Shown in pieces: positions 3,143 through 4,815 of a stretch of DNA of 34,975 nucleotides (position 1 is its first letter; each line of letters opens with the position of its first letter). Source of the DNA: Chloroflexota bacterium. Lineage in GTDB: Bacteria; Chloroflexota; Dormibacteria; Dormibacterales; Dormibacteraceae. A model generated the notes under the pieces. It was not told the DNA's origin. It did no database searches and worked only from the letters and a program-made list of their open reading frames with translations. The DNA lies in contig VBDS01000039.1 of NCBI GenBank assembly GCA_005889085.1, positions 1 through 34,975 of the forward strand, given 5' to 3'. Position numbers and translations under genes: made by a program.

Positions 3143-3427
3143 ATGAGCATGCTTGCAGGCGGGATCAACAACCAGATCAGCGCGGGACGGAAGACGATCG
3201 AGCATTCGTTTGGTGAGATGAAGGACCTGGACATTCGGAAGGTGCCCCCGCCAACGCTCGTCGCGGCCGGGTTCGTGACTGCAATCGTCGCGGTGGGCAT
3301 CGTCGGGTGGATGGTCTATCGGAGCCGCCGCCGCCGGACGCTGGTGGAGCGGCTGCAGAGCGCGATTCCCGACTCGGTCCGTGACCTGCCGCAGGAAGTG
3401 CGCGCCCAGGTGAAACGCGCCCTGTAG
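3143..3427 (+). CDS. Small single-pass membrane protein
   Basis: 94 aa. A strong GAGGAGG ribosome-binding site precedes the ATG at 3143. Residues 1-37 are polar and probably cytoplasmic or amphipathic. Residues about 38-60 form one transmembrane helix (TLVAAGFVTAIVAVGIVGWM), followed by a basic stop-transfer cluster (YRSRRRRTLVERL) and a charged amphipathic tail ending at VRAQVKRAL. The positive-inside pattern places the C-terminus in the cytoplasm. It diverges from the zinc-finger gene, with 148 bp between starts. No known family is recognised, and the tandem hairpin repeats begin 48 nt after its stop. Confidence 0.6.
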   Translation: MSMLAGGINNQISAGRKTIEHSFGEMKDLDIRKVPPPTLVAAGFVTAIVAVGIVGWMVYRSRRRRTLVERLQSAIPDSVRDLPQEVRAQVKRAL

Positions 3428-3475
3428 CCAGCTACAGATCGCTAGTGATGGCGCCCGCGCGTCACCGGCGTTGCC

Positions 3476-3671
3476 CTGGCGGCCGGGTTTACCCCGGCCG
3501 CGACTATGCCAATCGGTCTCGCAAACGCTTCTCCGAGTGGCTACTTAGACAAGTCCCAACCGCATACCGGAAAGAGAGCAGCCCCGTCGGCGACGCCGAC
3601 GGGGCGATGCAATCAGTAATCCCATCCTGCCCGCGCCTGGCGCGCAGAGGAAACCATCCGGGTTTCCTCTC
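3476..3671. repeat. Tandem structured repeat, copy 1 (196 bp)
   Basis: First of two direct repeats at a 213-bp period, with 13 substitutions and no indels between copies (about 93% identity). Hairpins in order: a 9-bp stem (GCGGCCGGG/CCCGGCCGC, 3479-3487 with 3493-3501, 5-nt loop); an 11-bp stem (GCCCCGTCGGC/GCCGACGGGGC, 3581-3591 with 3595-3605, GAC loop); a short GCGCC-T-GGCGC palindrome (3634-3644); and a 10-bp stem (AGAGGAAACC/GGTTTCCTCT, 3646-3655 with 3661-3670). The unit lies between convergent genes. An ORF on the plus strand crosses both copies but looks like a by-product of the repeat. It could encode a structured RNA, be a mobile intergenic repeat, or act in termination. Confidence 0.85.
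3646..3670. terminator. Terminal hairpin of repeat copy 1
   Basis: A perfect 10-bp stem (AGAGGAAACC with GGTTTCCTCT) and an ATCCG loop. It is terminator-like in shape but has no T-run on either strand. It is repeated identically at 3859-3883. Confidence 0.35.
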
Positions 3672-3688
3672 CCACACCCAGCGCTGCT

Positions 3689-3884
3689 CTGGCGGCCGGG
3701 TTTACCCCGGCCGCGACTATGCGACTCCGTCTCCCAAATGTTGCTCCGAGTGGCTACTCAGACAAGTCCCGACCGTATACCGGAAGGAGAGCAGCCCCGT
3801 CGGCGAAGCCGACCGGGCGATGCAATCAGTAATCCCATCCTGCCCGCGCCTGGCGCGCAGAGGAAACCATCCGGGTTTCCTCTC
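3689..3884. repeat. Tandem structured repeat, copy 2 (196 bp)
   Basis: Second copy, starting 17 nt after copy 1 ends. The first 34 nt and the last 75 or so nt are identical to copy 1, and most differences cluster in the unpaired middle (about 3723-3745). The 11-bp stem has one mismatch in this copy because of a G-to-C change, while the other stems are unchanged. It ends only 8 nt beyond the stop codon of the patatin gene, so the terminal hairpin would also be read at the 3' end of that transcript. Confidence 0.85.
3859..3883. terminator. Terminal hairpin of repeat copy 2, just past the patatin stop
   Basis: The same 10-bp stem as at 3646-3670. Read on the minus strand it begins 8 nt after the patatin stop codon, a natural position for a terminator, though a T-tract is lacking. 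Confidence 0.4.
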
Positions 3885-3891
3885 ATATCCT

Positions 3892-4815
3892 CTACGCTGC
3901 CTGTGCGGGGTTCGGGCTCAGCTTGAGCGCCTTGCGCGCCTTGTCGGGCGTGGCTAGGTCGCGCGACTGGCCGTTAGCCTCGCTGAGGTAGCGACCGGCC
4001 GACCGGTAGCCCCAGTCGATCAGCTCCCGTGTGTGGCTGAAGTCGGCAGGCGAGACGTCGGCCAGATCCAATGCGGGCAGAACGTGGATGCTCGCGACGT
4101 CGCGGTTCGACGCGACCTCGGCCTCGAGCCTCTGCTCGACGATCCGCGCCAGCGCGTTGAGCGCCATCCCCAGCGCATTTGTGGGCTCGCGGTTCAGCCA
4201 GGGGTAGCCGACGGGTAGGACGTAGATCTCGGCCGCCCCGAGCTCGATCGCGACCGTGACGGGGGTGTGGTTGGCGACGCCACCGTCGACATACTCGCGC
4301 CGGCCGATCGCGACCGGCGGGAACACGCCAGGGATGGCGCAGCTCGCGAGCACTGCGGGCACGGCTGGTCCCGACTTGAGGACTGTCGCCCGCCCGCTCT
4401 TGAGCTCGGTGGCCACGATGTGAACGGGCACTCGGGCCTCCTCGAGCCGCTCAAACGGAATGTGTTGCTCGAGGATCGAGCGCAGGCTCTGGTTCGAGAT
4501 GAGGTGATTGCTTCGGCCGAGCAGCCCAAGGGCGCTGGTCAGTGGGCTCAGCGGAAACACGTCCTGCCGCCGCAGGCCGAGCCAGATGTCAGCCAGGTCG
4601 ACCATGGCGTCCGGATCGGGTCTCCCGGCGACCCACGCCGCGTTGACCGCGCCTACCGAGGTGCCGATAAGGAAGTCCGGCCGCAAGTTGCTCTCGAACA
4701 AAGCCCGGAGCATTCCGACCTGGACGGCGCCCAGGCTTCCACCACCCGAGAGGACGAAAGCCGTACAACGTCCACCTTCCTCGCCGCGCCGGCGGCGGGG
4801 GGCCGAGGCGCTCAT
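3892..4815 (-). CDS. Patatin-like phospholipase / NTE-type lipid esterase
   Basis: 307 aa from ATG 4815; a longer open frame to 4911 overlaps the upstream gene and is low-complexity. The patatin fold signatures are present: the oxyanion glycine-rich loop (LSGGGSLGAVQVG, residues 22-34), the nucleophile elbow G-T-S-V-G with Ser53, and the catalytic Asp177 in the DGG motif (YVDGGVANHTP). Such Ser-Asp dyad enzymes hydrolyse acyl esters of phospholipids or neutral lipids. There is no signal peptide, so it is probably cytosolic or membrane-peripheral. It lies 25 nt downstream of a 60-aa gene on the same strand and probably shares its transcript. No obvious ribosome-binding site is seen. The exact lipid substrate cannot be told. 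Confidence 0.88.
   Translation of the reverse strand: MSASAPRRRRGEEGGRCTAFVLSGGGSLGAVQVGMLRALFESNLRPDFLIGTSVGAVNAAWVAGRPDPDAMVDLADIWLGLRRQDVFPLSPLTSALGLLGRSNHLISNQSLRSILEQHIPFERLEEARVPVHIVATELKSGRATVLKSGPAVPAVLASCAIPGVFPPVAIGRREYVDGGVANHTPVTVAIELGAAEIYVLPVGYPWLNREPTNALGMALNALARIVEQRLEAEVASNRDVASIHVLPALDLADVSPADFSHTRELIDWGYRSAGRYLSEANGQSRDLATPDKARKALKLSPNPAQAA

Follow-up and report, generated by a model that had tools for sequence, protein, structure and literature searches.

The window analysed here, a stretch of 34,975 nucleotides from a Chloroflexota bacterium (contig VBDS01000039.1), contains two head-to-tail repeat units (3465-3677 and 3678-3890; period 213 bp) between two convergent genes. 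A 94-amino acid gene without a Pfam match (3143-3427, + strand) precedes the units, and a patatin-like phospholipase gene on the - strand ends beyond them with its stop codon at 3892-3894. The first-pass annotation, made from the sequence alone, had described two tandem units with a 213-bp period, 13 substitutions and no indels between convergent genes. Comparison of the 196-bp cores (3476-3671 with 3689-3884) confirmed both the arrangement and the counts, with exactly 13 substitutions. The first 34 nt of the core are identical in both units, as described before; the identical stretch at the core's end measures 70 nt rather than about 75 nt. The reported accumulation of seven of the 13 differences in one short stretch was found at 3510-3530. 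The three strong stems of the earlier description are real (3479-3501, 3581-3605 and 3646-3670), and DNA folding of copy 2 resulted in z = -4.8 for the + strand and z = -5.8 for the - strand, with none of the shuffled sequences being as stable. The features of the locus are listed below.

3428-3464, no strand: 37-bp stretch from the upstream stop codon to copy 1, missing at the empty site of the nearest relative
3465-3673, + strand: element copy 1, a long form carrying the optional 36-nt module (match to covariance model R1 of 127 bits at 3467-3673); 3' end decayed, with CTCCCACAC in place of CTCATA
3479-3501, + strand: hairpin 1 of copy 1, GCGGCCGGG TTTAC CCCGGCCGC, followed by conserved ACTATG
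3510-3530, + strand: variable segment of copy 1, also variable across the element family
3569-3581, + strand: conserved purine tract 5' of hairpin 2 in copy 1, GGAAAGAGAGCAG, type R
3581-3605, + strand: hairpin 2 of copy 1, GCCCC GTCGGC GAC GCCGAC GGGGC, with a C-G pair replacing the usual C.C mismatch and the loop GAC
3610-3645, + strand: optional 36-nt module of copy 1, CAATCAGTAATCCCATCCTGCCCGCGCCTGGCGCGC
3646-3670, + strand: hairpin 3 of copy 1, AGAGGAAACC ATCCG GGTTTCCTCT
3678-3886, + strand: element copy 2, long form, with the end ...CCTCTCAT (R1 match of 129 bits at 3680-3883)
3692-3714, + strand: hairpin 1 of copy 2
3782-3794, + strand: conserved purine tract 5' of hairpin 2 in copy 2, GGAAGGAGAGCAG, type R
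3794-3818, + strand: hairpin 2 of copy 2, with lower stem, C.C mismatch, GC-closed upper stem and GAA loop as is the family norm
3823-3858, + strand: optional 36-nt module of copy 2
3859-3886, + strand: hairpin 3 of copy 2 including the CAT end, which is separated by 5 nt from the stop of the patatin-like gene
3892-3894, - strand: stop codon TAG of the patatin-like phospholipase gene, abutted by hairpin 3 and at the same place in an element-free relative

Distribution and anatomy of the repeat family

The covariance model R1 was built from 56 copies, and matches with E ≤ 0.001 were counted as copies. DNA search and R1 together identified 12-13 full copies in the window's own genome. Copies were present in 31 of 61 related genomes, with up to approximately 45 per genome, and all of these genomes belong to one bacterial family. 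All 17 genomes of the window's genus carry copies, as do many others of the same bacterial family; the element-bearing genomes represent several genera of one Dormibacterota family of soil bacteria. Across the roughly 36 genomes of this family, g1, g2, g3, g7, g9 and g11 carry the element, and g4, g5, g8, g10 and g12 have none or almost none. None of the 24 genomes of other families in the class had a copy in the R1 search. A search of the genome and its relatives had been proposed earlier, with many intergenic copies taken as indicative of a dispersed repeat; the copies recovered support that reading.

The first-pass annotation had recognised no named RNA in the layout. Rfam gave no match to the window at gathering score; a permissive scan of eight loci yielded only weak matches below this score. 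Phages and plasmids gave no match to the element, and viral matches obtained by pattern scan were rejected as true copies since the element context was missing. Spread beyond the Dormibacterota was likewise dismissed, as pattern matches in other phyla lacked the rest of the element, with the exception of one contig. This contig, labelled Myxococcales (palsa_1153), carries at L123:3938-4112 a sequence nearly identical to the Dormibacterota locus L166, and is probably mis-binned. Literature searches, covering open-access papers, returned no description of such an element in Dormibacterota. The elements form a family of mobile repeats of small size (about 110-213 bp) that has apparently not been described before.

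The + strand consensus starts with CCAGCGTYGCNTTGG, followed by hairpin 1 (GCGGCCGGG TTYAY CCCGGCCGC) and RACTWTG. A variable stretch, GAGTGGCTACTTAGACAAGTCC AACCGTATACCGGAA and the purine tract NGRGAGCAG lead to hairpin 2 and CGATG, after which the optional 36-nt module, hairpin 3 (AGAGGGAACC ATCCG GGTTCCCTCT) and the end CATA follow. The GCAG directly 5' of hairpin 2 is invariant. The element is GC-rich and has no terminal inverted repeats; its ends, CCAGCGTYGC... and ...CTCATA, are not inverted repeats of each other.

The 36-nt module occurs in approximately 15% of the copies, being missing in 85 of 100 parsed copies. It was also found alone, outside any element (L325, G000:C248:5019-5054; L318, G007:C46:15008), and may therefore be a separate mini-repeat. 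Minimal forms without hairpin 2, composed of hairpin 1, linker, GGTGAGCAYGAG and hairpin 3, were found at L354:1895-2195, L356:4221-4451 and L363:15683-15793; some of these are arranged in tandem at approximately 122 bp. At several loci (L300, L302, L043 and L044) the element is reduced to its 3' half, which begins at the hairpin-3 loop (ATCCGGGTT...CTCAT) and is fused to unrelated sequence.

Mobility and docking at stop codons

In the nearest relative (G013, patatin-like protein 90% identical) the window locus reads CTGTAG|CTACGCC, so that the stop codons of both genes abut and the element is absent. A single copy in the same orientation is present at this locus in G008. The copies in G007 and G016 have the opposite orientation; that of G007 provides, with its TATGAG end, the stop of the small gene, and that of G016 is truncated. 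Most other relatives have no copy there. Further empty sites were obtained by a joined-flank search of the genus, e.g., the L189 locus, which is empty in approximately 10 genomes. Elements were also found nested inside older ones (L185). The empty sites and the independent insertions in both orientations show that the element is dispersed and has moved. Together with the many intergenic copies, the empty sites also support the earlier suggestion of a non-autonomous intergenic repeat. As to its supposed recent amplification, the copies do not stem from a single recent burst, given their occurrence in several genera and the difference between the window units at 9% of the positions. The window site itself looks young because it is empty in the closest relative.

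The insertions lack a detectable target-site duplication. Left and right flanks of 89 copies shared no convincing k-mer above the level of shuffled sequences, and none was seen in the empty-site comparisons. Furthermore, 0 of 86 hairpin-1 sites in approximately 1.6 Mb of loci lead into a protein gene, and no autonomous copy was found there. Three enzymes were rejected as drivers. Y1 transposase (PF01797; IS200/IS605/RAYT) was found in no element-bearing genome, with positive controls. Reverse transcriptase (PF00078) and IS110 (PF02371) each occurred sporadically in a few element-bearing genomes, and co-occurrence with the element was not observed for either. Element orientation had no significant link to replication direction, with a GC skew too weak for this test.

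The hairpin-3 end lies most often directly behind a stop codon. Gene calls were taken from a simple codon-usage caller, not from curated annotation. Among 70 copies with a gene read towards the hairpin-3 end, 52 had the stop of this gene at a distance of -4 to +5 nt from ...CTCAT; the same measure at the hairpin-1 side gave 11 of 53. In a second set, from two other genera, the numbers were 32 of 56 and 1 of 39, respectively. Both sets, which share a few copies, combine to 84 of 126 docked hairpin-3 ends (other end: 12 of 92). In the -4 class the TGA within the element's ATGAG acts as the stop. In approximately 80% of the cases, the hairpin-3-side gene runs towards the element. The flanking genes fall into 137 clusters, so the docking does not stem from one inherited locus. 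For both the window locus and L187, the empty relative has its stop at the same place, and insertion therefore adjoins a native stop.

Covariation and coupling within the element

Standard base pairs accounted for 99.1% of the pair cells among 56 sequences, and 175 double-changed cells were counted compared to 55 after shuffling; every slid control collapsed. All three stems are thus kept by paired substitutions, and the covariation test proposed in the first-pass annotation gave a strong signal. In approximately 2,900 pair cells of 100 parsed copies, G.T (13) and A.C (11) were equally rare. Folding as + strand RNA would give more G.U than A.C, and folding as - strand RNA the reverse; the equal counts thus provide no RNA wobble signature for either strand.

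In 85 of 94 copies, a C.C mismatch occupies the third or fourth position of the hairpin-2 stem, counted from the base, and is retained amid freely exchanged pairs. A stem change in copy 2 of the window, previously read as the cost of one pair, is this mismatch and hence the family norm, with the C-G pair of copy 1 as the exception. The loops of hairpin 2 are GNA (81) or GNNA (8) in the same 94 copies, with just one GNNA being GNRA, and they are closed by GC/GC in 93. The second set gave similar values (GNA 34 and GNNA 4 of 41 loops; C.C in nearly all). GNA and GNNA loops on at least two G-C pairs form extraordinarily stable DNA mini-hairpins (PMC4686876); this signature is present on the + strand only. 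Three independent signs, namely the missing wobble bias, loops of the GNA/GNNA type on GC pairs and a conserved C.C mismatch within a fully covarying stem, favour a folded DNA strand rather than RNA as the selected form. Of the earlier proposal of a structured RNA family, the structure was therefore upheld by covariation, but its RNA character was not, given the missing G.U excess and a loop with closing pairs of the DNA mini-hairpin kind.

The purine tract is of two types, TGGG(A/C)G (type T) and RGAGAG (type R), and hairpin 3 varies with it: AGGGAAAACC/GGTTTTCCCT accompanies type T and AGAGGRAACC/GGTTYCCTCT type R. Tract and hairpin 3 matched in 38 of 38 copies of type T and 57 of 59 of type R, with two AGGG tracts being split; overall, about 97 of 100 copies were matched. 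Alignment columns 112 and 149 read AA in 57 copies and GG in 37, with 3 crossed. The alleles of hairpin 2, which lies in between, are independent of tract and hairpin 3, and the same alleles are found in both types; hairpin 1 and the presence of the module are also unlinked to the types. The coupling persists in long-form copies with 36 additional nt between the partners. Its persistence across the module and the independence of hairpin 2 point to a probable contact between tract and hairpin 3, or to a joint recognition of the two.

The tract is approximately the mirror of the hairpin-3 5' arm, which makes a purine-motif triplex conceivable. This mirror relation fits most copies. A triplex is not claimed here because six copies (the G022/G026/G035 set) changed the 5' arm alone, with the tract unchanged. 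Watson-Crick pairing of the tract with the hairpin-3 3' arm was rejected, since predicted duplex energies fail to separate matched from mismatched combinations for the T tract.

The coupling might also go back to an old split into two subfamilies, between which gene conversion exchanged hairpin 2 alone, without any physical contact of tract and hairpin 3. Such a split alone yields the same two-type pattern, and repeated switches are weakly supported by the tree (the best one has 23 changes, but only two independent pairs lie on supported branches). Against this, neither hairpin 1 nor the module nor the alleles of hairpin 2 go with the types, the two types share identical hairpin-2 alleles, and an additional 36 nt between the partners leaves the coupling intact. 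We regard a purely historical origin of the coupling as possible, but not as the probable one.

In L010, L046, L104, L143 and L151, hairpin 1 has a C-TT-G loop (GGACTTGCTCC) and a longer, different 3' neighbour (AACACGCG... compared to GACTTTG). Loop and neighbour may represent a second coupling.

Possible mechanism and comparison with known repeats

The element is rather probably a non-autonomous mobile element whose folded + strand DNA is recognised by an enzyme acting in trans, with insertion at the 3' ends of genes. The functional form would be the single + strand, which could become accessible during replication or transcription or through cruciform extrusion. Hairpin 2 would serve as a mini-hairpin for protein recognition, and contact between the tract and hairpin 3 would fix the fold. 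A trans-acting strand-transfer enzyme may bind this fold and insert the element at gene 3' ends, where insertions would be tolerated; hairpins at 3' ends may be an incidental benefit to the host. The tandem pair in the window would have formed after the first insertion, through either duplication of the unit or insertion of another copy. Several points stand against mobility as folded DNA. Neither an autonomous copy nor a transposase was found, Y1 (PF01797) being missing in all element-bearing genomes and reverse transcriptase and IS110 not co-occurring with the element. No gene follows any of the 86 hairpin-1 sites, and orientation had no significant link to replication direction at a GC skew too weak for this test. 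Finally, the absence of wobble pairs is equally expected if RNA of both strands must fold.

The last point leads to an RNA element of 3' untranslated regions, i.e., a transcribed hairpin array that ends, stabilises or attenuates messages in a terminator-like or REP-like manner. It would have spread by some route, and its retention would be due to folding of both strands or of the message from the gene read towards hairpin 3. The oriented placement, with the hairpin-3-side gene mostly read towards the element, and the strong covariation fit such a function; REPs elsewhere are also common between convergent and codirectional genes (PMC3733652), and a need for folding of both strands would eliminate G.U on either one. 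However, a U-run follows none of the hairpins on the - strand, and wobble pairs are in excess on neither strand. On the - strand the hairpin-2 loop would be UNC and the mismatch G.G, for neither of which stability is known, and on the + strand those GNNA loops whose third position is a pyrimidine do not qualify as GNRA tetraloops. In addition, most orthologous genes are element-free. Selection as RNA is therefore considered unlikely.

A more specific version of the folded-DNA reading is quite doubtful. In this version, the recognition unit would be a tertiary DNA fold consisting of a GNA mini-hairpin with the conserved C.C mismatch and of a purine tract docked on hairpin 3, e.g., as a reverse-Hoogsteen G.G-C/A.A-T triplex; a hitherto undescribed type of enzyme would insert the element behind stops.

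Small palindromic repeats are common in bacteria. MITEs are characterised by terminal inverted repeats, a target-site duplication and a related autonomous element with transposase. The Dormibacterota element resembles MITEs (Correia, RUP, ERIC and similar; PMC3049150) in being short, non-autonomous, dispersed and strongly structured, but has neither terminal inverted repeats nor a target-site duplication and is not AT-rich. REPs are defined by a GTAG (or CGTC) tetranucleotide beside a 20-40-bp palindrome (PMC3733652). REP/REPIN/BIME repeats with RAYT (PMC3733652) also consist of palindromes with a conserved mismatch and an adjacent tetranucleotide behind genes, and are probably recognised as single-stranded DNA as well. 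As a member of the REP/REPIN class or of one derived from IS200/IS605 (PATE-like), the element would be mobilised by a Y1 HUH tyrosine transposase that works on hairpins in single-stranded form. Such membership would agree with the imperfect palindromes with a conserved mismatch, the tetranucleotide 5' of hairpin 2, the intergenic 3' location and the absence of a target-site duplication, but is very improbable given the tag GCAG instead of GTAG or CGTC (PMC3733652), genomes without RAYT or any other Y1_Tnp despite working controls, and three distinct hairpins with conserved linkers over approximately 170-210 bp in place of a REP pair.

BOX elements of Streptococcus pneumoniae (PMC3049150) are similar small modular interspersed hairpin repeats, non-autonomous, with optional internal modules, enriched between convergent genes and inserted into one another. 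Modularity of this kind was found here too, with modules absent, present or standing alone, and with hairpin 2 lost in minimal forms. BOX has terminal inverted repeats and target-site duplications (PMC3049150), both absent from the Dormibacterota element, which differs further in its GC-richness, DNA mini-hairpin, C.C mismatch and precise docking at stop codons. The mini-hairpins d(GCGNAGC) and d(GCGNNAGC) (PMC4686876) share loop class and closing pairs with hairpin 2 on the + strand in 89 of 94 copies; they were described as synthetic oligonucleotides and aptamer parts, whereas here the motif belongs to a genomic repeat. The literature searched held no report of this mini-hairpin as the conserved core of a genomic repeat family.

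Evidence for selection of such a repeat as folded DNA, not RNA, is rarely this direct. Since hairpin 2 varies freely between them, the coupled tract and hairpin 3 are a candidate, open to testing, for a tertiary contact in natural DNA. Insertion behind stops without target duplication or known transposase suggests that this uncultured soil lineage has a mobility system which has so far gone unrecognised.

Other palindromic repeats were observed at the same post-stop positions in related genomes (L303, L304, L305, L300 and L301). They include the types CACCGCTGG.TCCA.CGG and CCTCTCCCC...GGGGAGAGG, and these positions are shared insertion hot spots.
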